Source: Microbispora bryophytorum (GTDB lineage Bacteria; Actinomycetota; Actinomycetes; Streptosporangiales; Streptosporangiaceae). From it: DNA of 64,000 nt. The translations under genes were made by a program, and so were the position numbers. The notes below the pieces were generated by a model. It did not search any database and was not told where the DNA came from. It was given only the letters and a program-made list of their open reading frames with translations. Below, one piece after another: positions 2,037-15,387 of this stretch; positions within the stretch are counted from its first letter, which is position 1; every line of letters begins with the position of its first letter. The stretch covers positions 62,001 to 126,000 of the forward strand of contig NZ_VIRL01000019.1 of assembly GCF_006874465.1 (NCBI RefSeq), written 5' to 3'.

Positions 2037-3770
2037 ATGAGCAGCTCTCCTTCCCGTTACTCGGCCTTCACCCCCGTCCGCCTGGCGGACCGGCGCTGGC
2101 CGGACCGGATGGTCGAGGCCGCCCCGCGATGGCTGTCCACCGACCTGCGCGACGGCAACCAGTCGCTGGTCAACCCGATGAGCCCGGAGCGCAAGCTCGC
2201 GATGTTCGACCTTCTCGTACGGATGGGCTACAAGGAGATCGAGGTCGGTTTCCCGGTGGCGAGCCAGGACGACCACGACTTCGTGCGCATGCTGATCGAG
2301 CAGGACCGGATCCCCGACGACGTGCGGATCTCGGTTCTGGTGCAGGCGCGGGACGAGCTGATCCGGCGGACCGTGGAGAGCCTGGCCGGTACTCCCCGGG
2401 CCAACATCCACCTCTACAACGCGACCGCCCCGCTCTTCCGCCGGGTGGTCTTCGGCATGACCCGCGACGAGTGCAGGAACCTCGCCGTCGAGGGCACCCG
2501 GCTGATGATGAAGTACGCCGAGGCGACCCTGGGCGACTGCGACCTGGGATTCCAGTATTCGCCCGAGCTCTTCAACGAGACCGAGCCCGAGTTCGCGCTC
2601 GAGGTCTGCGAGGCGGTCATGGACGTGTGGCAGCCGGAGGAGGGCCGGGAGATCATCCTCAACTTCCCGACCACGGTGGAGCGGTCGCTCCCGCACGTCT
2701 TCGCCGACCAGATCGAATGGCTCGACCGCAATCTGTCCCACCGCGAGCACGTCTGCCTGTCGATCCACCCCCACAACGACCGGGGCACCGGCGTGGCCGC
2801 CTCCGAGATGGCGCTGCTGGCCGGCGCCCAGCGGATCGAGGGCTGCCTGTTCGGCAACGGCGAGCGGGCCGGCAACGTCTGCCTGGTCACCCTCGGCCTG
2901 AACATGTACACCCACGGTGTCGACCCCGGCATCGACTTCTCCGACATCACCGAGATCCGGCGCACTGTCGAGTACTGCAACGAGATGCAGGTCAGCCCCC
3001 GCCACCCGTACGGCGGCGACCTCGTCTACACGGCCTTCTCCGGCTCCCACCAGGACGCCATCAAGAAGGGCTTCGACGCGCTGACCGTGGAGGCCGGCGA
3101 GGCCGGCGTCAGCGTGGACGACCTGCCGTGGAGCATGCCGTACCTGCCGATCGACCCCAAGGACGTCGGCCGCACCTACGAGGCGGTGGTGCGCATCAAC
3201 AGCCAGTCGGGCAAGGGCGGCGTGGCCTACATCCTGAGCGCCTGGCACGGGCTCAACCTGCCCAAGAACCTGCAGGTGGAGTTCGCCCGCGTCGTGCAGG
3301 CCCACGCGGACGGCTCGGGCGGGGAGATCACTCCGACCGTCGTCCGCGACCTGTTCGACGAGGAGTACCTGTCGCGGACCGAGATCACCGTCCCGCTCGG
3401 GCTCGGCGGCCGGCCGCTGCAGACCACCTTGTACGTCGACGGCGCGCGCTTCGACGTCACCGGGCCGCGGGCCGACGCCATCCGCACCCTGGGCGCCCGG
3501 CTGGCGGTCTGGAACGTGGACGTGCAGATGGTCCACCGCACCGGCGTGGAGGCCGCGGCGGGGAGCGCGGAGGACCGGGAGGTCGCGGTCTACGCCGAGT
3601 GCGTGATCGACGGGCGGCAGGTCTGGGGGGTGGGCCTCGACCGCGACGTGGTCGCCGCGTCCTTCGCGGCCGTCCGCTCGGCCCTGGCCCGCGCCGGCGA
3701 AACGGACGCGGAAGGCGCGGGAGAGCGGGCCGGCGAGAGCGTTTCGGCGCGAATGACGCTGGTCGGCTGA
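2037..3770 (+). CDS. leuA: 2-isopropylmalate synthase
   Basis: Condenses acetyl-CoA with 2-oxoisovalerate in the first committed step of leucine synthesis, or makes a chain-extended precursor if it belongs to a specialised pathway. The 577-residue length fits full-length actinobacterial LeuA. It has an N-terminal TIM barrel with the catalytic signature STDLRDGNQS at residues 34-43, metal ligands in IHPHNDRGTG and a GNGERAGN loop. A C-terminal regulatory domain follows. I chose ATG 2037 because AAAGGA precedes it; the frame stays open upstream to 1857 but without LeuA-like sequence. No leuB/leuC/leuD is nearby, so this may be a second, pathway-specific copy. Confidence 0.9.
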   Translation: MSSSPSRYSAFTPVRLADRRWPDRMVEAAPRWLSTDLRDGNQSLVNPMSPERKLAMFDLLVRMGYKEIEVGFPVASQDDHDFVRMLIEQDRIPDDVRISVLVQARDELIRRTVESLAGTPRANIHLYNATAPLFRRVVFGMTRDECRNLAVEGTRLMMKYAEATLGDCDLGFQYSPELFNETEPEFALEVCEAVMDVWQPEEGREIILNFPTTVERSLPHVFADQIEWLDRNLSHREHVCLSIHPHNDRGTGVAASEMALLAGAQRIEGCLFGNGERAGNVCLVTLGLNMYTHGVDPGIDFSDITEIRRTVEYCNEMQVSPRHPYGGDLVYTAFSGSHQDAIKKGFDALTVEAGEAGVSVDDLPWSMPYLPIDPKDVGRTYEAVVRINSQSGKGGVAYILSAWHGLNLPKNLQVEFARVVQAHADGSGGEITPTVVRDLFDEEYLSRTEITVPLGLGGRPLQTTLYVDGARFDVTGPRADAIRTLGARLAVWNVDVQMVHRTGVEAAAGSAEDREVAVYAECVIDGRQVWGVGLDRDVVAASFAAVRSALARAGETDAEGAGERAGESVSARMTLVG

Positions 3771-3863: not shown

Positions 3864-6659
3864 ATGGCCCTGGTGGAGCGGGAAGAGGTGTTGGCCTCCC
3901 TTGAGGACATGCTGGCCGACGCCGTCACCGGCAGAGGAAAGATCGCGATCGTCGGCGGACCCGTCGCGACAGGAAAGACCGCACTGCTCAACACTCTGGT
4001 CGAGGACGCTCTGGAGCACGGCGCCCTGCCGCTGACCGCGACCTGCTCCCAGTCCGAGACGGGACTGGCGCTGGCCGTGCTGTCGCAGATCCTGCACAAC
4101 GCGCCGCTCACCCCCGAGGAGGAGGAGCGCACCCGCAACCTGCTGCACGAGGGCGCCCGCTGCGCCATGTCGGCCGACCCGCTGGCCGACTACGTCGACC
4201 AGGTGGACGCCCACATCGTGCACGCCCTGTGCATGGTGCTGCTCGAACTCGCCGAGCGGCACCCCCTCATGATCGTGGTGGACGACATCCAGCACGCCGA
4301 CCGCGCCTCCCAGCTCTGCCTGGCCTACCTCGCCCGCAGGCTGCGCTTCGCCCACATCCTGGCGATCTTCAGCCAGTCGGAGGAGACGTGGAACGCCCCG
4401 TCGCTGTTCCAGACCGAGCTGCTGCGACAGCCGCACTGCCGCCGCCTCCCGCTGTCGGCCCTGTCCCGCGAGGGCGTCGAGATCATGGCCGCCGACATCG
4501 TGGGTGACGACGTCGCCCGGCGGTTCGCCGCGGACTGGCACGCGGTCAGCGGCGGCAACCCGCTGCTCGTGGGCGCGCTCGTCGAGGACCACCTCGCCGC
4601 GACCGACGCCGGAGGCGCCCCGGCCGAGAGCGAGGCGGCGGATCCGGACGAGATCGTCACGGGCGACGCCTACCGCCAGGCGGTGCAGTCGTGCCTGCGC
4701 CGCGGGCACCCGCTCGCGGCCCGCGTCGCCCGGGGCCTGGCGGTCGCCGGCGACCCCGGCCACCTCGACCGGCTGCTCGACCTCGACGCCGGCGTCGTCG
4801 TCCAGACGCTCAACGCGCTGCACAACGCCGGGCTGGTCGGCGCCGACCTGCACCTGCGCCACCCCCAGGCGCGCGCCGCCGTGCTCGCCGACCTCGACCG
4901 GCACGAGCGGACGGACCTGCACCGCAGGGCCGCCGAGCTGGCGTACGGCCAGGGCGCCCCGGCCGCCGTGATCGCCGAGCACCTGCTGGCCGCCTCGCAC
5001 AACGGCGGCTCCTGGGCCGTGCCGATCCTGGAGGAGGCGGCCCGGCAGGCGCTCAGCGAGGGACGGGTCGAGCCCGCCGTCGACTACCTGCGGCTGGCCG
5101 ACGGCGCGTGCACCGACGACCAGCGCCGGGCCACCATCAAGACGACGCTGGTGCGGGCGGAGTGGCGGCTCAACCCGAGCGCCCCCGCGGCCCACCTCGA
5201 CGAGCTCACCGACGCCATGCACCGCGGCCACCTGCGCGGCTCCGACGCGGTCGTGCTGGCCAAGGCGCTGCTGTGGCACGGCCGCTTCGACGACGCCCGC
5301 GACGTGCTCGACCACCTGGGCAGGATCGGCACGATCATGGACGCGGAGACCGTGGCCGAGATCCGCGCCGTCCGGCCGTGGCTGCGCTGCTCCTACACGC
5401 CGTTCCTGGCGCACATCCCGAGGGTCACCGACGTGAGCACGCAGGCGCCGCCGTCCGCACCGGTCATCGGCCGGCTGGAGGCCGCCACCGCGCTCGCGGC
5501 GGTGCTCACCAAGGGCCCGCACCCGCAGACGCTGGCCGACGTGGAGCGCATCCTGCGCGGCTCCCGCCTCGACGACATGTCGATGGACGCCGTCGAGTGC
5601 GCCCTGCTCGCGCTGATCTACGGTGAGCGGCCCGACCTGGCGGCCCCCTGGTGCGACCTGTTCTTCGAGGAGGCCGCCAGCCGGCGCGCCCCCAGCAGGC
5701 AGGCCCGCCTCGCGGCGCTGCGCGCCGAGATCAGCCTGCGGCAGGGCGACCTGGAGGGCGCCGAGGGCCTCGCCCAGATGGCCGTACGGCTCATCCCGCC
5801 GACGAGCTGGGGGGTCGCGATCGGCGGCCCGCTGTCGGTGCTGCTGACGGCGGTGACCGCGATGGGCCGGCTGGACGAGGCCGTGCAGCTGGTGAACCAG
5901 CCGGTGCCCGAGGCCATGCTCCAGACCCGGTACGGCCTGCACTACCTGAACGCGCGGGGCCGCTACCAACTGGCGACGGGCGACCTCGGCATGGCGTTGC
6001 GCGACTTCCAGACGTGTGGCGAGCTGATGGGCTCCTGGAGCCTCGACTCGCCGGGGCTGGTCTCCTGGCGGACGGGCGCGGCCGAGGCGCTGATCGGCAT
6101 GGGCCGCGCGGAGCAGGCCCGGCCGCTGCTGGACGAGCACGTGGCGCGCTGCGCCCCCGGCCCGGTCCGCGCCCGCGGGACCGGCCTGCGGCTGACGGCC
6201 GCCGCGAGCGAGCCCCGGCAGCGTCCCCCGCTGCTGCGCCGCGCCGCCGACATGCTCCAGGCGAGCGGCGACCAGTACGAGCTGGCCCGGGCCCTGGTCG
6301 ACCTGGCCGACGCCTACCAGGCGGTGGGAGAGCTGCGCCGCGCCCGTACGGTCGCCAGGCAGGCGCAGCGGATCGCGGAGGAGTGCGAGGCCGTTCCGCT
6401 GGTCAACGCGCTCACCCAGGGCGGTCCCGGGCAGCCGGCCGAGCCGCCCCGCACGGACAACGGCCCCGGGACGCTGAGCGAGGCCGAGCGCCGGGTGGCC
6501 TCGCTCGCCGCGGTCGGATACACCAACCGCGAGATCGCCGACAAGCTGTACATCACGGTCAGCACGGTCGAGCAGCACCTGACCCGCATCTACCGGAAAC
6601 TCAACGTCACCCGCCGTTCCGACCTGCCCGCCAGCCTCGAGTTCAGCACCTCCGCCTGA
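3864..6659 (+). CDS. Large LuxR-family ATPase transcriptional regulator (LAL)
   Basis: A 931-residue regulator of the MalT/LAL class. It has an N-terminal AAA ATPase with Walker A GGPVATGKT (31-39) and Walker B LMIVVDDIQHAD, a long central tetratricopeptide-like helical region, and a C-terminal LuxR HTH (from about residue 865: LSEAERRVASLAAVGYTNRE). Such proteins usually activate a neighbouring pathway after binding a ligand and ATP. GGGAGG precedes the ATG. It sits between the leuA homologue and an amino acid permease, and a strong terminator hairpin follows. LAL regulators are typical of actinomycete secondary metabolism, which hints that this left end is the edge of a biosynthetic locus. 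Confidence 0.9.
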   Translation: MALVEREEVLASLEDMLADAVTGRGKIAIVGGPVATGKTALLNTLVEDALEHGALPLTATCSQSETGLALAVLSQILHNAPLTPEEEERTRNLLHEGARCAMSADPLADYVDQVDAHIVHALCMVLLELAERHPLMIVVDDIQHADRASQLCLAYLARRLRFAHILAIFSQSEETWNAPSLFQTELLRQPHCRRLPLSALSREGVEIMAADIVGDDVARRFAADWHAVSGGNPLLVGALVEDHLAATDAGGAPAESEAADPDEIVTGDAYRQAVQSCLRRGHPLAARVARGLAVAGDPGHLDRLLDLDAGVVVQTLNALHNAGLVGADLHLRHPQARAAVLADLDRHERTDLHRRAAELAYGQGAPAAVIAEHLLAASHNGGSWAVPILEEAARQALSEGRVEPAVDYLRLADGACTDDQRRATIKTTLVRAEWRLNPSAPAAHLDELTDAMHRGHLRGSDAVVLAKALLWHGRFDDARDVLDHLGRIGTIMDAETVAEIRAVRPWLRCSYTPFLAHIPRVTDVSTQAPPSAPVIGRLEAATALAAVLTKGPHPQTLADVERILRGSRLDDMSMDAVECALLALIYGERPDLAAPWCDLFFEEAASRRAPSRQARLAALRAEISLRQGDLEGAEGLAQMAVRLIPPTSWGVAIGGPLSVLLTAVTAMGRLDEAVQLVNQPVPEAMLQTRYGLHYLNARGRYQLATGDLGMALRDFQTCGELMGSWSLDSPGLVSWRTGAAEALIGMGRAEQARPLLDEHVARCAPGPVRARGTGLRLTAAASEPRQRPPLLRRAADMLQASGDQYELARALVDLADAYQAVGELRRARTVARQAQRIAEECEAVPLVNALTQGGPGQPAEPPRTDNGPGTLSEAERRVASLAAVGYTNREIADKLYITVSTVEQHLTRIYRKLNVTRRSDLPASLEFSTSA

Positions 6660-8195: not shown

Positions 8196-8837
8196 GTGGG
8201 CAACGAGATCGAGGACGTCCCGGACATCAGCGCCGAGTGGTATCGGGAGGTCACCGCCTTCGCCCTGCACACCCCCGCGTGGGTGCGCGACGCGGCGGGG
8301 ATCGCGACGGACGCCGTCCCCGCGATCCTGTTCGCGTTCCTCGTCCTCGGGTGGTGGCGGGCGCGGCGGGAGGACGACCGCAGGATGGCGCTCGCCCTGC
8401 TCGCCCCGGTCGCGGTGGTGACGGCCTATCTCGCGAGTGAGGGTGTCAAGAGCGTCCTGCGGCTGCGCCGCCCCTGCTGGGACCTGGCCGACGTGGTCAC
8501 CGTGACGCACTGCCCGCCGTACGGCGACTGGTCGCTGCCGAGCAACCACGCGACCTTCGCCGCGGCGGCGGCCGTCGCGCTGGCCGTCCTGTGGCGCGGC
8601 ATGGCGGTGGTGGCGCCGGTGCTCGCGCTGCTGGAGGCGTTCTCCAGGGTCTTCGTCGGCGTTCACTACCCCCACGACGTGGCGGCGGGGCTGCTGTTCG
8701 GCGCGCTGATCGCGCCGCTGGTCTTACTGGCCCCGCGGAGCTCCGCGACCGCCCTGGTCGCCGCGATGCGGCGGCGCCCCGCGCTGGCGGCGGTGCTGAC
8801 TACCGCCCGCCCGCCAGTCCCGCCTCATGGGCGATGA
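8196..8837 (+). CDS. PAP2-family membrane phosphatase
   Basis: A 213-residue membrane protein of the type-2 phosphatidic acid phosphatase family, likely acting on lipid or undecaprenyl phosphates at the outer membrane face. All three catalytic motifs are visible in order: KSVLRLRRP (KxxxxxxRP), LPSNH with the His acid/base, and SRVFVGVHYPHD with the nucleophilic His. Five or so hydrophobic segments surround them. The start is GTG with GGAGGGG upstream. The last 38 bp overlap the 3' end of the convergent response regulator gene, an overlap that leaves no room for a conventional terminator. Confidence 0.85.
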   Translation: MGNEIEDVPDISAEWYREVTAFALHTPAWVRDAAGIATDAVPAILFAFLVLGWWRARREDDRRMALALLAPVAVVTAYLASEGVKSVLRLRRPCWDLADVVTVTHCPPYGDWSLPSNHATFAAAAAVALAVLWRGMAVVAPVLALLEAFSRVFVGVHYPHDVAAGLLFGALIAPLVLLAPRSSATALVAAMRRRPALAAVLTTARPPVPPHGR

Positions 8838-9462
8838 CCGCGGCCCGCACCCGGTTGGGCACGCCGAGCTTTCCCAGGATCGTGCTCACGTAGGTCTTGA
8901 CGCTGCCCTCGGCGAGGTGCAGGCGGGCGGCGATGCCCGCGTTCGACAGGCCCTCGCCGACCAGGGCGAGCACCTCGCGCTCCCGGCCGGTCAGCGCCGC
9001 GACCTGGTCCCGGGCCGCGGCCGAGCGCGACAGCCGGTCGCCGGCGAGCCCCCGGATGACCCGTGCGGCCACCGGCGGCGACAGGTACGCCCCGCCCTCG
9101 GCCGCCGCCCGCACCCCGAGGGGGAACTCGCGCGGATCCCCGGTCTTCAGCAGGAACCCCGCCGCGCCGTCGCCCAGCGCGCGGGCGACGTAGGCGTCCT
9201 CACCGAAGGACGTCATGATCAGTACGGCGGCGCCGGGGGCGGTCCTGCGCACCTCGGCCGCGGCGGCCAGCCCGTCCAGGCCGGGCATCCGGATGTCGAC
9301 GAGCGCGACGTCGGGCCGGTGTGCCAGGACGGCGTCCACCAGCTCGCGCCCGTCGGCGGCCTCGGCGACCACGTCGATGTCCGGGTCCGCCGCCAGGATC
9401 GCCCGCACCCCGGCCCGGATCACCGGTTCGTCGTCGGCCAGGACCACCCGGATCGCGCGCAT
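8800..9462 (-). CDS. NarL/FixJ-family response regulator
   Basis: Receiver domain plus LuxR-type HTH, 220 residues. The phosphoacceptor is Asp56 in VALVDIRMPGLDG, with acidic residues D10/D11 and Lys in FLLKTGD completing the site. The C-terminal HTH is LTGREREVLALVGEGLSNAG. I chose ATG 9462 because the protein begins as usual for the family (MRAIRVVLADDEP); the frame is open further upstream. It lies 41 bp downstream of a sensor kinase on the same strand, so the two form a two-component system. Confidence 0.92.
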   Translation of the reverse strand: MRAIRVVLADDEPVIRAGVRAILAADPDIDVVAEAADGRELVDAVLAHRPDVALVDIRMPGLDGLAAAAEVRRTAPGAAVLIMTSFGEDAYVARALGDGAAGFLLKTGDPREFPLGVRAAAEGGAYLSPPVAARVIRGLAGDRLSRSAAARDQVAALTGREREVLALVGEGLSNAGIAARLHLAEGSVKTYVSTILGKLGVPNRVRAAVIAHEAGLAGGR

Positions 9463-9503
9463 GCCTTGATGGTAGGCAAGCGTGGAAAGTCTCCGGGCGC
9501 CGG

Positions 9504-11318
9504 TCAGGAGGGCAGGAAGGTCTTGGCGACCAGCCGCCCCCCGGCGAAGCACAGCCGGTAGAGGGTCAGGTCGCCGAACGGCTCGGGGCTGGTGCTGTAG
9601 TAGCGGCACCGGGCGCCCGGCGGGATCGGCGGCTCGGGCCAGGACGGATCGTCGATCCTGGTCCTGGCCGGCAGCACCGCCGCGACCTCGGCCTCGGCCT
9701 GCCCGGCCCGCAGCTTCGCGAACTCGGCCGGCGGCAGGACCGAGGTGGCCGCCTCGTAGACCGTGAACCCGAGCACGAACGCCGCCACTCCGGCCGCCGC
9801 GGCCAGGCAGACCAGCGCCGCGGCCAGTCGCGTACGGCGCACCCGCCGCCGGGCCAGCGCGAGCGCCGGCTCAAGCTCCAGTTCCAACTCCAGATCCGGC
9901 TTCCGCTCCGGCTTCCGCTCCGGCTTCCGCTCCGGCTTCCGCTCCGGCTCCACGGGCCGCGACGCCGTCCGCGGGGGAACACTCGGGGGAACACGCAGGG
10001 GGACGGGCGAGGGGATACCCGGTGGGCCATTCGGAGGGCCATTCGGGGGGCCATTCGGAGGGACGGTGTGCGGGAGCCGTACGGTCAGGGCGAATCCGCC
10101 GTCGGCGGGGCCGCTCTCCAGGGACCCGCCCTGCCGGCGGACCCGCTCCGCAAGTGCCCGCAGTCCGTGTCCGCCCGTCACGCCGCGCCCTTGCAGGCGG
10201 GACGCGGCGTTGGCGACGCCAACCACGGTCTCGCCCGGTGCGTGCGCGAGCCGTACGGTGACCGGGGCGCCGGGCGCGTGCTTGGCGGCGTTGGTCAGCC
10301 CCTCGCGGACGACCCGCCGCACGGTCGCCAGCGCGGGCGCGGGGATCCGCGCATCCTCCTGGGTGCCGTGCAGCGTCACCGGCATTCCGGCGGCCGCGGC
10401 GCGCCGGACCAGTTCGCCCACGCTCTCCTCGGACGGATCCGCCGTGTCCTCGTGCGCCGTGTTTTCACGCACCGTGTTTTCGTGTTCCGCGTCTTCGCGC
10501 GCTGTGTTTTCGCGCGCTGTGTTTTCGCGCGCTGTGTTTTCGCGTTCGGGGCCGAGGCCGGGGCCGTCGCCGTCCCTGAGCACGGCGACGATGTCGCGCA
10601 GGCGCTCGGCCGCGGCGGTGACCGCCTCGCGGGCCTCGCCCGCCGCCCGGCGCCGGCTCTCGGGAAGGCCGGCGTCGACCTCCAGGGCCCCGATCCGCAG
10701 CGCGACCAGGCTGAGGTCGTGACCGAGCAGGTCGTGCATCTCCCTCGCGATGGCCGCCCGCTCCCGCAGCCGCGCCTGCTCGGCGAGCATGCGGTGCTCA
10801 CGCTCCAGACGTCCGGCGCGTTCCCAGCCCGCCCTGGTCAGGGCCAGGCTCTGGTGCCGGGCGTGGCCCGCCAGCCACGGGACGAGTCCGAACAGCGCGA
10901 TGCCCGTGACGGCGAAGAACCACGCGCCGAGGTCCCACTGCGCCGCGAGAAGCCACCGTACGAGCGGGACGACGACGGCGGCGACCACCGAGGCTCCCGA
11001 CAGACCGAGCAGGGCGGGCCGGGCCCGAGGCATGCGCACCCCGGCCAGGTAGCTCATCACCGCCAGGGCCGGGAAGAAGACGGTGGGGTCGCCCCGTACG
11101 GCCACCGAACCCGCCCACAGCGCGGCCGTCACGAGCATCGCCCTCAGCGGCCGGGGCCGGGCGAACGCGACGGCCACACCGATCGCCGCCAGCCCGGCGA
11201 TCACCTCGGGCCAGGTGTACCTGTCGGCCAGGATGCGCGTGAGTCCCGCCCACAGCGCCGGCAGACCGAGGACGGCCCAAAGCAGGACGTCCTTGAGGTA
11301 TGCCGCTTTCCTCCCCAC
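9504..11318 (-). CDS. Sensor histidine kinase with repeat insertions and a C-terminal exo-domain
   Basis: A 604-residue NarL-type kinase. Order: about five N-terminal membrane segments (10-150), HisKA_3 helix with His195 (AIAREMHDLLGHDLS), an inserted acidic (R)ENTA repeat at about 259-293, HATPase with N-box REGLTNAAKH (339-347), then repeats GPPN and ERKP (420-474), and a second basic-plus-transmembrane segment (about 488-520). An ~80-residue C-terminal domain should then lie outside the cell. The GTG start directly abuts the stop of the upstream sigma factor gene, suggesting translational coupling. The insertion between phosphoacceptor and ATPase domains is unusual, as is a tail that returns across the membrane. 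Confidence 0.85.
   Translation of the reverse strand: MGRKAAYLKDVLLWAVLGLPALWAGLTRILADRYTWPEVIAGLAAIGVAVAFARPRPLRAMLVTAALWAGSVAVRGDPTVFFPALAVMSYLAGVRMPRARPALLGLSGASVVAAVVVPLVRWLLAAQWDLGAWFFAVTGIALFGLVPWLAGHARHQSLALTRAGWERAGRLEREHRMLAEQARLRERAAIAREMHDLLGHDLSLVALRIGALEVDAGLPESRRRAAGEAREAVTAAAERLRDIVAVLRDGDGPGLGPERENTARENTARENTAREDAEHENTVRENTAHEDTADPSEESVGELVRRAAAAGMPVTLHGTQEDARIPAPALATVRRVVREGLTNAAKHAPGAPVTVRLAHAPGETVVGVANAASRLQGRGVTGGHGLRALAERVRRQGGSLESGPADGGFALTVRLPHTVPPNGPPNGPPNGPPGIPSPVPLRVPPSVPPRTASRPVEPERKPERKPERKPERKPDLELELELEPALALARRRVRRTRLAAALVCLAAAAGVAAFVLGFTVYEAATSVLPPAEFAKLRAGQAEAEVAAVLPARTRIDDPSWPEPPIPPGARCRYYSTSPEPFGDLTLYRLCFAGGRLVAKTFLPS
10441..10545. repeat. In-frame 15-nt tandem repeat inside the sensor kinase
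   Basis: Tandem copies of a 15-nt unit related to GCGCGCTGTGTTTTC, perfect for three copies and degenerate for about four more. It encodes the (R)ENTA repeat on the minus strand. T-rich codons stand out against the surrounding GC-rich coding sequence. Confidence 0.8.
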
Positions 11319-13622
11319 TCAGGCAACGGTATCCGCAGGGCGCGGAATCCTGACGAATCCGTGCAGGGTCCGTACGCTGCCGTGGCCGGACAGGGACATC
11401 AGCATCGGCGCGGACCAGCCGTCCTCGCCGAGGTGGGCCAGGCGCGAGTGGCGCAGCCGGTGCAGGGTGCAGCCGCTGCCCTCCGGGTCGACGTCCGCGG
11501 TGGCCCGTTTGAACAGGTACTCCGCCCGCTCGTACGACAGGCGCCCCCGGCCCGTGTCCGGGCACAGGTCGGCCGCCACCGGCATACGGCCCGGCCCCGG
11601 CCTGCGGTCGGCGAGGAACAGCGGACCCCGGCGGCGGCCCTCGACGAGGAGGGGCAGGAGCGCGGCCGTGTCGGACTGCCACCGCAGCCAGTGCCCTCTG
11701 GCCTTCACCTCGCCGCGCATGCCGGGCAGGTCGAGGTCCTCCACGTTGAGCGAGAGCGCCCACTCTGCCGGGGCCGCGCTCTCGTACAGCAGCAGCCACA
11801 GCGTGCGCTCGCGCAGCGGGATGTCCGGCCGCTTCCACAGGCTCTCCAGCCGCGACCGGTCGATGGAGCGGGTGCGGGCGCGGGGCTCGGGCCGCCGGTC
11901 GAGCGAGGCGGCGAGATCGGCGGCGGCCCAGCCGCGCTCGGCCGCCCACGTGGCGAACGACCGCAGCGCCGCACGGTGCCTGTTCCAGGTCGCGCCCGCC
12001 GCCGTGCCCCAGGCCGCGGCGAAGACCTCGGCGACCCGGTGGGACGTCACGTCCCGCAGCGGGGCATTCTCGCCGAGGTGCCGGCACAGCCGCGTCAGAG
12101 TCTGTCTGTAGGACCGCATGGTGTCGGCGCTCAGATCGGGCCGGGCGAGGAAGAGCCCCGCCGCCCCGCCGAGCGTGACGTGCGCATCCGCCAGGCCGGC
12201 CTCCCCGGCCTCCGCGGCCTTCCCCCCGGCCTCTGCGGCTTCCCCGGTCTCCTTGGCCTTCCCCCGGGTCTCTCCGGCTTCCCCGGTCTCTCCGGCTCCC
12301 CTGGCCTTCCCGGTCTCCGCGGCCTTCCCGGTCTCCCCGGCTTTTCCGGCCTCCTCCGCGCAGGTCGCGGCGCGCCGCAGCAGCACTGCTCGTTCCGAGC
12401 TGTTGCGAGTGAGGGACGCGGCGCGTTCGAACTCCGTCCGGGCCTCGTCGTGCCGGTGCAGCCGGGCCAGCAGATCCCCGCGTACGGCGGGCAGCAGGTG
12501 GTAGCCCTTGAGCGCCGGTTCGCCGGTCAGCGTGTCCACGAGCGTGAGACCGGCGCGCGGCCCGTAGGCCATGGCGAGCGCCACCGCGCGGTTGAGCTGG
12601 GCGACCGGCGTGGGCAGCACCCTGACGAGGGCCTCGTAGAGCGCCGCGATCTGCGGCCAGTCGGTCTCCTCCGGTGTGGCGGCCCCCGCGTGGCAGGCCG
12701 CGATGGCCGCCTGCAGCACGTACGGGCCGAGGGGACCGCCGGCCTGCCGCGCCCGCAGCAGCGCCGCGAAGCCGCGCCGGATGAGCAGCGGGTCCCAGCG
12801 GCCCCGGTTCTGCTCGTGCAGCACGACGGGCTCCCCCGACGGGCCGGTACGCGCGGCCGAGCGCGACTGCTGCAGCTCCATCAGCGCGACCAGGCCGTGC
12901 ACCTCGGCCTCGTCCGGGGTCAGCTCGGCCAGGACGCGGCCCAGGCGCAGCGCCTCCAGGCAGAGGGACGGGCGCATCAGCTCGTCGCCCGCCGTCGCCG
13001 CGTATCCCTCGTTGAACACGAGATAGATCACTTCGAGCACCGACGACAGCCGGGCCGCCCGATCCGGCCCCGACGGGACCTCGAAGGGGACATGCGCGTC
13101 GGCGAGCGCCCGCTTGGCCCGTACGATCCGCTGGGCGACGGCGCTCTCGGAGACGAGGAAGGCCCTCGCGATCTCGTCGGTGCGCAGGCCGCCGATCAGC
13201 CGCAGCGTGAGCGCGACCCGGGCCTCGGTGGACAGCACCGGGTGACAGGAGACGAACATCAGCCGCAGGACGTCGTCGCCGACCTCGCCGTCGAGCGCGT
13301 TCACCACGTCGTCCACGTCACGCTCGCCGTCGTCGGGGCGGCTGGCGAGATCGTGGGCGAGCTGCTCCTGCCCGCGGTCGCGCCGCTCCTCCCGGCGTAG
13401 GTGATCGACGGCGCGGCGCTTGGCGACGGCCATGAGCCAGGCGCCCGGGTTGTCCGGGACGCCCGCCTCGGGCCACTGCTCCAGCGCGGCGAGGACGGCG
13501 TCCTGCGCCAGCTCCTCCGCCAGGCCGACGTCTCCGACCATTCGCACGAGGCCGGCGACGATCCTCGCGGACTCCATCTTCCAGACCGCGTCCGCGACGC
13601 GGTGGGCGTCCAGCGACGTCAC
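11319..13622 (-). CDS. ECF42-type sigma factor fused to a degenerate tyrosine-recombinase domain
   Basis: Residues ~1-425 are a complete ECF sigma factor of the DUF6596/ECF42 type: sigma-2 (AEELAQDAVLAALEQWP, NPGAWLMAVAKRRAVDHLRR), sigma-4 (LRLIGGLRTDEIARAFLVSE) and the family's C-terminal TPR-like region. A ~50-residue linker of Glu/Gly/Ala/Lys repeats follows. Residues ~478-767 then resemble a tyrosine recombinase: an N-terminal SAM-like core-binding part and a catalytic-like part with LHRLRHSRL and LSGHGS. The first catalytic Arg position reads AAPAEW and the Tyr position is Phe (TLHGFVR), so strand transfer is unlikely. ECF42 proteins normally end near 410 residues. I chose GTG 13622; TTG 13658 is an in-frame alternative. 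The DGPF partner lies upstream. Confidence 0.8.
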   Translation of the reverse strand: MTSLDAHRVADAVWKMESARIVAGLVRMVGDVGLAEELAQDAVLAALEQWPEAGVPDNPGAWLMAVAKRRAVDHLRREERRDRGQEQLAHDLASRPDDGERDVDDVVNALDGEVGDDVLRLMFVSCHPVLSTEARVALTLRLIGGLRTDEIARAFLVSESAVAQRIVRAKRALADAHVPFEVPSGPDRAARLSSVLEVIYLVFNEGYAATAGDELMRPSLCLEALRLGRVLAELTPDEAEVHGLVALMELQQSRSAARTGPSGEPVVLHEQNRGRWDPLLIRRGFAALLRARQAGGPLGPYVLQAAIAACHAGAATPEETDWPQIAALYEALVRVLPTPVAQLNRAVALAMAYGPRAGLTLVDTLTGEPALKGYHLLPAVRGDLLARLHRHDEARTEFERAASLTRNSSERAVLLRRAATCAEEAGKAGETGKAAETGKARGAGETGEAGETRGKAKETGEAAEAGGKAAEAGEAGLADAHVTLGGAAGLFLARPDLSADTMRSYRQTLTRLCRHLGENAPLRDVTSHRVAEVFAAAWGTAAGATWNRHRAALRSFATWAAERGWAAADLAASLDRRPEPRARTRSIDRSRLESLWKRPDIPLRERTLWLLLYESAAPAEWALSLNVEDLDLPGMRGEVKARGHWLRWQSDTAALLPLLVEGRRRGPLFLADRRPGPGRMPVAADLCPDTGRGRLSYERAEYLFKRATADVDPEGSGCTLHRLRHSRLAHLGEDGWSAPMLMSLSGHGSVRTLHGFVRIPRPADTVA
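12185..12345. repeat. Low-complexity linker repeat in the sigma-recombinase fusion
   Basis: Pyrimidine-rich tandem motifs of 9-15 nt (variants of TCTCCGGCTTCCCCGG) encode the Glu/Gly/Ala/Lys linker on the minus strand. This is the junction between the two fused domains. Confidence 0.75.
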
Positions 13623-13735: not shown

Positions 13736-14086
13736 TCAGCGGGGGCCGGGCCCGGGGGCGTCTTCGGGGCCGAACACCCGCTGGACCGAGCCCTCGCCGT
13801 CGCCGACGATCTTCCAGAAGCCGCGGGCCAGTTCCACGGCCTCCTCGCGGGACCGCGCCTCGATCAGGGCGAAGCTGACGATCGCCTCCTTCGCCTCGGT
13901 GAAGGGGCCGTCGGTCACGGTGATCTCACCGCCGGAGGAGATCATCCGCAGGCCGCCCGGCTCCAGCCCGCCGGTGGCCAGCAGCACGCCCGTCCTGGTC
14001 ATCTCCTCGATGAAGGCGCCCATCTCGGCCATCATCGCCGCATCCGGTGTGCGGGAGCCGCCCTTGGTGGTCATCAGAAACCGCAT
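13736..14086 (-). CDS. YCII/DGPF-domain protein, partner of the ECF42 sigma factor
   Basis: A 116-residue single-domain protein with the conserved VTDGPFTEAKE signature (DGPF) and the typical start MRFLMTTKGG. YCII-related DGPF proteins are encoded next to ECF42 sigma factors across actinobacteria and are thought to be targets or modulators of them. ATG 14086 has a good AAGGAG site. The frame stays open upstream to 14593 through a minisatellite, but that part is repeat translation, not protein. The sigma gene follows on the same strand. Confidence 0.88.
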   Translation of the reverse strand: MRFLMTTKGGSRTPDAAMMAEMGAFIEEMTRTGVLLATGGLEPGGLRMISSGGEITVTDGPFTEAKEAIVSFALIEARSREEAVELARGFWKIVGDGEGSVQRVFGPEDAPGPGPR

Positions 14087-14610
14087 CGTCGTTCTCCTTC
14101 TTTCCGATCCTCTGGTCTGGCCGGGCCGTTCGCCGGTCCCGCCGTCACCTCCACGTCGTACGGGACGAGCCGGAATCGACCGGCTCCGATCCTGACACGT
14201 CATGACCTGGGCCTTCGGCTCGATGTGACAGGGAATGCGCATCTGACAGGGAATGCGCACTCGCGACTGTCGCCGCTGGTGGGCGGAGGAGGCGGCGGGC
14301 GGGCGGCACGGGCGGGCACGGACGGGCACGGACGGTCGAATCGCGCGGCCGCCGTTCGACGCGTGAGCGAGGCCGGACACCACATCGGCCCAGACCACCG
14401 AAGACCGGACCACCGAAGACCGGGACACCGGAGCCCGGGACGCGAAGCCCCGGACCACCGGAGCCCGGGACACCGGAGCCCGGGACGCGAAGCCCCGGAC
14501 CACCGGAGCCCGGGACACCGGAGCCCGGGACGCGAAGCCCCGGACCACCGGAGCCCGGGACACCAAAGACCGGGACACGGAAGCCCGGGACACCGAAGAA
14601 GGGAACGGCC
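14087..14610. other. Intergenic region with a 45-bp minisatellite
   Basis: This 524-bp gap separates the minus-strand DGPF gene from the plus-strand DUF998 gene. From about 14395 to 14605 it consists of tandem units derived from CACCGGAGCCCGGGA. Three near-exact 45-bp higher-order units are flanked by degenerate copies. The unit length is a multiple of three, so every frame looks open across it. Two copies of GGGAATGCGCA(T/C)(T/C) near 14231-14262 form a second short repeat. The promoters of both flanking genes should lie here. Confidence 0.8.
14395..14605. repeat. 45-bp tandem minisatellite
   Basis: Higher-order unit of 45 bp composed of 16-, 15- and 14-nt variants of a CCGGAGCCCGGGA motif, about three exact copies between about 14424 and 14560 with decayed copies at both ends. 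Each unit holds CCCGGG palindromes, so it could also fold as a series of small hairpins if transcribed. It ends about 6 bp before the DUF998 start codon. Confidence 0.85.
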
Positions 14611-15387
14611 ATGACCGCCACGCAGGACACCACCCAGCTCACCTCCCAGCGCACCACCCGGCTCACCTCCCAGCTCACCCCTCGGCTCACCGTGCGGCCG
14701 GCCGCACGGCGTCCCGCGCCGGGTTCGGCGGGCGCCACGAGCACGGCGGTCTCCACCGGATCGACGCGTGCGCTGCTCACCTGCGCCGTGCTCACCACGC
14801 CCGTCTTCGGGATCGTCTCGCTTACGCAGGCGTTCACCCGCGAGGGGTTCGACCTGCTCCGTCACCCGCTCAGCATGCTCAGCACCGGCGACCTCGGGTG
14901 GCTGCAGATCGGCAACTTCTGGATCACCGCCGTCCTGACGGTCGCCGGGGCGATCGGACTGCGCAGGGTCATGCGCGGCACGCCCGGAGGGACGTGGGCG
15001 CCCAGGCTGCTGCTCGTCGAGGGCGAGGGACTCGCGGCGGCCGGGGTCTTCAGCATGGACCCGGGGGACGGTTTCCCCGCCGGCACCCCGCTGGGGGCCC
15101 CGGCCGGGATGAGCTGGCACGCGATGCTGCACATGGCGGCCGGCTCGGTGGCCTTCACCGCGCTCATCGCGGCCTGCTTCGTCCTCGGCCGGCACTTCGC
15201 CCGCGCGGGGCGGGCCCGGCACGCGGTCGCCTCCCGGCTCGGCGGCCTGGCTCTCCTGCTGGGCAACGGATGGGCCATGTCCGGCGGGCGGGCCGGCTCC
15301 CTCACCCTGTGCGTCGGCGTGCTCGTCGCGATGGCCTGGGTCTCGGTGGTCGCCGCCGCCAAGCGCGCGGACCTCGGGCGACGCTGA
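14611..15387 (+). CDS. DUF998 family membrane protein
   Basis: A 258-residue integral membrane protein. The family signature region HPLSMLSTGDLGWLQIGNF follows the first membrane segment. About six hydrophobic segments are visible in total. The N-terminal 45 residues are a Thr/Leu/Ser/Arg-rich tandem repeat (LTSQ-type) not expected for the family, and probably an extension of the neighbouring repeat-prone DNA. GAAGGGAACGGCC precedes the ATG. The biochemical role of DUF998 is not established. Confidence 0.8.
   Translation: MTATQDTTQLTSQRTTRLTSQLTPRLTVRPAARRPAPGSAGATSTAVSTGSTRALLTCAVLTTPVFGIVSLTQAFTREGFDLLRHPLSMLSTGDLGWLQIGNFWITAVLTVAGAIGLRRVMRGTPGGTWAPRLLLVEGEGLAAAGVFSMDPGDGFPAGTPLGAPAGMSWHAMLHMAAGSVAFTALIAACFVLGRHFARAGRARHAVASRLGGLALLLGNGWAMSGGRAGSLTLCVGVLVAMAWVSVVAAAKRADLGRR

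Follow-up and report, generated by a model that had tools for sequence, protein, structure and literature searches.

Described relatives of the locus

Sigma factors read promoters by regions 2 and 4, and activators bind DNA as separate proteins. The ECF42 sigma factors, such as Sven_0747, Sven_4377 and Sven_7131 of Streptomyces venezuelae, add to these regions a DUF6596/tetratricopeptide repeat (TPR) extension and are accompanied by a DGPF/YCII partner gene. The minus strand of the DNA analysed here, a 64,000-nucleotide stretch from Microbispora bryophytorum (the window), encodes a protein that shares all of these features, together with a near-canonical promoter of the TGTCGA...CGAC type. In contrast to ECF42, the window protein and its fused relatives carry an extra domain of 230-290 amino acids that appears to derive from a tyrosine recombinase, and their promoters contain half-sites for which this domain is the candidate reader; part of the family, here called group B, also has an altered -35 motif and an altered reading helix in sigma region 4. 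We propose, with a probability of roughly 0.7, that a domesticated TnpI-like domain anchors this ECF42 sigma factor at its own divergent promoter, making the locus self-activating. The relevant sections of the papers on ECF42 deal with the TPR extension and do not mention a recombinase domain (PMC8999054, PMC8103513, PMC6180224). No description of a sigma-recombinase fusion was met in the literature searched, though an earlier mention in ECF classification work is possible.

The closest described counterpart of the added domain is TnpI, the tyrosine resolvase of the Tn3-family transposons Tn4430 and Tn5401. As described for Tn4430, the irs site upstream of the tnpI gene has two direct repeats in addition to an inverted pair, and in Tn5401 the binding of TnpI modulates expression of tnpI and tnpA from promoters within the site (PMC7157771). 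Standalone relatives of the window domain likewise are tyrosine recombinases with an upstream site made of an inverted pair and further half-sites, a likeness drawn from the description of TnpI. The fused domain differs from TnpI in that it is attached to a sigma factor, has lost catalytic residues and is found with half-site spacers mostly of 6-8 rather than 5 nucleotides (nt).

Use of the recombinase fold, or of its N-terminal part, for DNA recognition is described for the ALOG domains of plants (PMC3537659). SroF of phage phi3T may be another case (Protein Data Bank (PDB) entry 9rd5, Foldseek E = 1.0e-3), likened here by fold only. We also take the phage SPbeta repressor YopR to use the fold for binding DNA and not for cutting it. 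To our knowledge, no DNA-binding recombinase fold is known as part of a sigma factor, nor do we know of a SnoaL domain that acts as a sequence-specific DNA reader. A SnoaL-like domain forms the C-terminus of ECF41 and ECF56, which are likewise ECF sigma factors with a C-terminal extension of their own (PMC8103513, PMC7730460).

The fused protein and its family

The open reading frame at 11319-13622 on the minus strand begins with GTG and encodes 767 amino acids (Table 1). Pfam identifies Sigma70_r2 (PF04542, residues 21-81, E = 2.3e-11), Sigma70_r4_2 (PF08281, residues 123-173, E = 5.8e-10) and DUF6596 (residues 191-291, E = 1.2e-35), and gives weak TPR matches at residues 379-427 that fall under its curated cut-offs. 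Both ECF regions, a DUF6596/TPR extension of about 200 amino acids and the neighbouring DGPF/YCII gene place the protein in ECF42. Towards the C-terminus Pfam finds Phage_int_SAM_1 (residues 496-564, E = 3.7e-9) and Phage_integrase (residues 691-753, E = 1.7e-7); searched alone, the last 290 amino acids match Phage_integrase over their residues 125-276 (E = 8.6e-8). An AlphaFold2 model of the window protein, calculated from an alignment of 65 related proteins, has a mean pLDDT (predicted local distance difference test) of 86.9, with most of the C-terminal domain at 87-97 and the linker (residues 444-478) disordered. Searched as a profile against the sequences of the PDB, the domain matched XerD alone (E = 2.9e-4), so the comparison of folds was relied upon instead: all 33 Foldseek matches in the PDB with E ≤ 1e-3 are tyrosine recombinases, including XerA, Tn1549 Int, lambda Int, IntI, Cre, XerH, XerD and Brujita Int. 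The modelled domain comprises the core-binding and catalytic halves of a tyrosine-recombinase fold. The original prediction, made from the sequence alone, had described an ECF42 sigma factor continuing through a linker into both halves of a tyrosine recombinase, with a DGPF gene next door. That architecture is borne out by the profile searches, the confident model and the absence of any different family from the 33 matches, and Pfam recognises the YCII domain of the partner.

When genome contigs were searched, 138 relatives were confirmed, and the loci analysed below are the best 80 of these 138. Sigma factor and domain share one frame in 70 of these loci, which come from many species and assemblies, so the architecture proposed for the window recurs elsewhere; two further fused loci (L076 and L101) are frame-broken and the remaining eight are standalone recombinases. 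The fusions span several actinobacterial families, and the hosts of the loci include Microbispora, Streptosporangium, Nonomuraea, Streptomyces, Kitasatospora, Amycolatopsis, Saccharopolyspora and Nocardiopsis. The linker of the window protein is a GC-rich repeat region, at which two separate genes might have been joined by a sequencing or annotation frameshift or by readthrough. We reject this explanation as scarcely credible, given the 70 single-frame fusions and the in-frame linkers of varied length: seven window-type Microbispora proteins have linkers of 23-89 amino acids, always in frame, and the aligned linkers outside Microbispora measure 7-15 amino acids, except for 101 in L118.

A tree of 88 rows places 75 fused proteins on one side of a branch and 13 standalone proteins on the other (Shimodaira-Hasegawa-like approximate likelihood ratio test (SH-aLRT) 99), a topology that fits a single fusion event. 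Fused loci were assigned by hand from the tree to group A, the clade containing the window (19 of 72), or to group B, the remainder (53 of 72); the frame-broken L101 was excluded from the tree and was assigned without it. Alignment A1 omits L076 and L101 and 14 other fused loci (L059, L064, L067-L069, L083, L086, L090, L093, L096, L097, L104, L111 and L117). In a set of 296 genomes drawn from the class, 12 contain the fusion, and in all 12, each of which was checked, sigma factor, domain, DGPF gene and target site occur together.

Loss and retention of recombinase residues

Aligned with intact standalone relatives, the window domain has P618 at the position of Arg I, H721 and R724 in the LHRLRHS box, H747 in the SGH box and F756 at the position of the catalytic Tyr. 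Its catalytic set is P-H-R-H-F, as against R-H-R-H-Y in an active recombinase (the beta-hairpin Lys lies outside this scoring). The earlier reading of a missing first Arg, a Tyr-to-Phe change and two surviving boxes therefore holds in this alignment. The full set is present in 11 of 13 true standalone rows and in only one of 74 fused rows, L045 (a Sphaerisporangium metagenome-assembled genome, at 5001-5864), which by its sequence is possibly a transitional form. Most fused proteins stop shortly after the HxxR box begins, with loss of the catalytic tail: a tail with the SGH histidine remains in 11 of 74 fused rows and the Tyr in two.

The intact standalone enzymes and the complete residues of L045 would suit a fused protein that is still a recombinase and moves or inverts its locus. 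For nearly all fused copies we reject this, given the loss of catalytic residues. Moreover, the half-site palindromes described below have spacers of 6-8 nt at fused loci, where found with 4-9 nt spacers, against 5 nt at standalone loci, and we consider a recombining fused protein very improbable.

Two stretches are retained irrespective of catalytic state. W546-N547-R548-H549 is invariant across fused and standalone proteins, as are nearly all positions of TGRxRLSYERAEYLFK, with deviations only at L695 and Y702; within it, nine of the ten columns of SYERAEYLFK are invariant among 65 aligned proteins and the tenth is nearly so. The positions of W546-H549 and of TGRxRLSYERAEYLFK presumably correspond to DNA-contacting helices of XerD and Cre. 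Even a truncated domain from Streptomyces (L062) is modelled as a compact fold (pLDDT 93.6).

A much-reduced fusion was also observed. L155 (genome G026, at about 2804-3691) is a 358-amino-acid frame made of sigma residues 5-253 and recombinase residues 210-247; it keeps SYERAEYLFK and has an inverted half-site pair upstream of its DGPF gene.

A candidate target site

The 14-bp word ATTCCCTGTCACAT was recognised as recurrent when the DNA upstream of DGPF genes was read. In a scan of the fused loci that allowed up to two mismatches and permitted G for the first A, this half-site stands no more than 194 bp upstream of the DGPF gene in every one of the 70 fused loci where such a gene is recognisable; three stray matches fell elsewhere. 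A separate but overlapping set of 30 sigma loci from relatives gave the half-site, again at ≤ 2 mismatches, in 16 of 16 loci with the domain and in none of 14 without it; of these 14, L133 lies at a contig edge with its fusion state unreadable, and L139 has one stray match with three mismatches.

The association extends to whole genomes. Among the 296 genomes, the exact 13-mer TTCCCTGTCACAT is present in 14, namely 11 of the 12 with the fusion and three of the other 284 (Fisher p = 1.4e-16); its distance from the domain in the 11 is 1.6-2.5 kb. The fused genome without an exact copy, G207, has a palindrome whose two arms carry an identical T-to-C change, and in G266 a second half-site pair lies near the standalone recombinase, at a distance of about 1 kb. 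The three non-fused genomes carry lone half-sites with no match to sigma factor, domain, DGPF or DUF998 within about 3 kb. In the 7.85-Mb genome from which the window comes, only two sites occur at ≤ 1 mismatch, both in the DGPF promoter at 14223-14254, and seven more occur at two mismatches, compared with two for a reversed control. The two window half-sites are direct repeats with no inverted core. The earlier suggestion that the sigma factor is tethered to chosen sites is upheld in so far as a candidate site was found; the half-site genome scans narrow it to what is probably a single locus, the protein's own promoter. A search of the literature for the exact site strings returned only five papers, all eukaryotic by title.

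Standalone recombinases connect the site to the domain. All eight close standalone loci have a half-site 60-1660 bp upstream of the gene and an inverted half-site pair with a 5-nt spacer (≤ 3 mismatches per arm), and five of the eight have a further half-site. Sigma factor, DGPF and DUF998 are all without a match at these eight loci, which leaves the recombinase as the sole gene, among those tested, that they share with the fused loci. This argues against a reading of the domain as an extension for folding or protein interaction, with the conserved site bound by an unrelated regulator, as does the absence of the site, at ≤ 2 mismatches, from the 14 sigma loci lacking the domain. Regulation of ECF42 through protein interactions of the C-terminal extension, as described in part of the literature (PMC8999054), would accord with such an arrangement, which we nevertheless regard as improbable.

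The more distant recombinase loci L023, L025, L027, L028 and L029, together with L031, have no half-site in about 1.5 kb of flanking DNA, and these six recombinases differ from SYERAEYLFK in that stretch. The standalone L025 has a perfect inverted repeat of its own, different in sequence, near the gene (1327-1361), which suggests that sites and enzymes co-diverge.

Probable origin of the domain

At L100 the recombinase gene is divergent from that of a Tn3-family transposase, with the half-site between them. Among 30 stronger standalone matches, hand-chosen from 20 searched genomes, a Tn3-transposase match lies within 5 kb of 13 and within 10 kb of 17. The idea that the standalone family always resides within a Tn3 transposon is only partly supported by these selected matches. 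In a tblastn search of the flanking DNA covered, one transposase query matched L100 and, weakly (25%), L029; it gave no others, and no Tn3 transposase at any fused locus. By analogy with TnpI in neighbourhood and site layout, a TnpI-like resolvase of the Tn3-family kind is the likely parent of the domain.

Promoter architecture and the proposed mechanism

Among loci without the domain, a canonical promoter of the TGTCGA-N15-TTCGAC type is present in 10 of 13 upstream regions. The exact canonical form occurs in 8 of 71 fused loci (window included), all eight of them in group A (19 loci), and in none of the scanned group B regions. The window promoter is GGTCGA-N15-TACGAC, not the exact canonical form, with the near half-site 41 nt away. 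Across group A, xGTCGA precedes a -10-like word by 21 nt in 17 of 19 loci, or in 18 of 19 with a looser -10. In these 18 the gap from half-site to -35 is 28-30 nt (nine loci), 39-41 nt (eight loci) or 52 nt (one locus), classes that differ by about one helical turn. By eye, linker length does not appear to set the distance between site and promoter, as window-type Microbispora linkers vary from 23 to 89 amino acids and the gap stays at 40-41 nt. An unusual repeat was noted at L104, in which GGTCGA occurs four times at exact 27-nt steps 230-311 nt upstream of the DGPF gene.

Group B promoters are organised differently. Of the 51 loci that have a DGPF gene, 48 have a readable proximal arm of the half-site palindrome, and in 46 of these 48 the arm ends 8-9 nt ahead of CGAC, the core of the -10; the divergent side shows the same 8-9 nt between arm and CGAC in 45 of 46. 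CGAC itself lies at a variable 32-103 nt from the start codon, and 2.1% of 25-mers from group B regions show the 8-9 nt spacing by chance. The sigma factor has also changed. Of 169 sigma positions fixed in domain-less loci and group A, five are changed in group B, and four of these (T148, A163, V167 and R168) lie in the sigma-4 helix-turn-helix (p = 0.0017). The window protein retains VAQRIVRAKR in this region; V167 and R168 are common to all 14 domain-less loci and all 19 group A loci.

In the mechanism we propose, an ECF42 sigma factor would have acquired a tyrosine resolvase that resembles TnpI, such as Tn3-family transposons carry, and the recombinase domain would have lost cutting in nearly all copies while keeping its fold and both conserved, likely DNA-reading helices. 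The domain would bind ATTCCCTGTCACAT half-sites in the promoter region that separates the DUF998 gene from the DGPF-sigma operon, and hardly anywhere else in the genome, and binding would anchor the sigma factor and RNA polymerase at that promoter, resulting in local self-activation. In group A the half-site would act in a helper role upstream of a near-canonical ECF42 -35, like the site of a class I activator, while in group B a two-arm palindrome would replace the -35 for both divergent promoters, together with alteration of the sigma-4 reading helix. From these sequence comparisons we infer that the domain binds the site, that binding activates and does not repress, that both divergent genes are targets and that the domain came from a transposon. 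The sequence data support the original prediction of a non-cutting, sequence-specific DNA-binding module that would tether RNA polymerase.

Alternatively, the fused protein may act at its site mainly as an autorepressor or occupancy sensor, like TnpI, or TnpR at res, with the sigma factor acting elsewhere or after release. Tn3-family resolvases are described as modulating or repressing promoters inside their own res or irs sites (PMC7157771), and the group B palindrome covers the place of the -35. The fixed arm-to--10 distance of 8-9 nt on both sides, the group A gaps that step by about one helical turn and the changed -35-reading helix of group B fit a use in promoter recognition better than blocking, and a pure repressor would have no need of fusion to a sigma factor. 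We regard autorepression as unlikely, if less so than the other alternatives considered here.

For the anchoring mechanism, a more specific version has about even odds. Here the group B sigma factor would have ceded -35 reading to the resolvase domain, the palindrome would serve both divergent promoters as a common -35, and two protomers bound to it would place one sigma region 2 on each -10. The window-type Microbispora loci would then be intermediates, with half-sites that assist a near-canonical promoter from upstream on one face of the helix.

Several observations weigh against anchoring by the domain. At two fused loci of the 72, L079 and L101, neither the half-site nor a recognisable DGPF gene is present; the group A locus L047 departs from the promoter pattern; four fused palindromes have spacers of 10-53 nt, and some loci have one arm only. 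The two arms show no excess covariation within loci (a value as high as that observed arose in 401 of 2000 shuffles). In Microbispora, the ratio of nonsynonymous to synonymous substitution rates (dN/dS) is 0.415 for the domain and 0.172 for the sigma factor (21 pairs), indicating weaker constraint on the domain. The AlphaFold2 model does not fix the relative placement of the domains (predicted template modelling score (pTM) 0.52), and among the eight closest standalone loci only L100 has a Tn3-transposase match in the flanking DNA covered (one query). Finally, the loci are related by descent, so that the counts above are not independent events, and several of the 296 genomes are the same assemblies as named loci.

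In many soil actinobacteria one polypeptide, with its added reader taken from a recombinase together with its site, seems to hold both promoter-reading and activator roles. Confirmation would make it a sigma factor that brings its own activator and would mean that, in one clade, a recombination site has taken over from the -35. The graded series from intact standalone enzymes through fused proteins with the full catalytic set to dead and then truncated fusions offers material on how a recombinase becomes a transcription factor. The findings also suggest a new means by which bacteria could direct RNA polymerase to a particular site, and a nearly single-target sigma factor for actinomycete engineering.

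Table 1. Features of the fused sigma factor locus, in window coordinates.
Feature	Position	Strand	Remarks
ECF42 sigma factor with tyrosine-recombinase (TnpI-like) domain lacking Arg I and Tyr, 767 amino acids	11319..13622	-	
Sigma region 2, residues 21-81, -10 recognition	13380..13562	-	Pfam PF04542
Sigma region 4, residues 123-173, -35 recognition	13104..13256	-	Pfam
ECF42 C-terminal extension, DUF6596/TPR-like, about residues 191-440	12303..13052	-	Pfam, model
Glu/Gly/Ala/Lys repeat linker, about residues 441-479	12186..12302	-	disordered in model
Core-binding (SAM-like) half, about residues 480-575, with invariant TWNRH stretch	11898..12185	-	
Catalytic half, about residues 576-756	11355..11897	-	P618, TGRxRLSYERAEYLFK, HRLRH, SGHGS, F756
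DGPF/YCII partner gene, first gene of presumed operon	about 13736..14086	-	Pfam PF03795, E = 1.3e-12
ECF42-like -10 element, TACGACGT on minus strand	14153..14160	-	
ECF42-like -35 element GGTCGA (canonical TGTCGA), 15 nt before -10 hexamer	14176..14181	-	
Candidate half-site 1, ATTCCCTGTCACAT, exact	14223..14236	-	sole exact copy in the 7.85-Mb genome
Candidate half-site 2, ATTCCCTGTCAGAT, one mismatch, direct repeat 18 bp from half-site 1	14241..14254	-	
Divergent DUF998 gene	14611..15387	+	

Neighbouring genes

A DUF998 match lies divergently upstream in 57 of the 80 loci, comprising 57 of the 72 fused loci and none of the eight standalone ones. In the set of 30 sigma loci it is found at 14 of 16 with the domain and at one of 14 without, some of these loci ending early. 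The genome containing the window has 14 matches to the sigma part, and ECF42-like or other sigma paralogues therefore coexist with the fused protein.

Downstream of the sigma gene and on the same strand (8800-11318), the window encodes a response-regulator-like frame, recognised by eye, and a histidine kinase with a HisKA_3 domain, identified by Pfam. Short tandem repeats occur in or beside neighbouring genes, at 9895-10544 (the histidine kinase) and 14305-14691 (around the start of the DUF998 gene), indicating that repeat expansion is common in this stretch.

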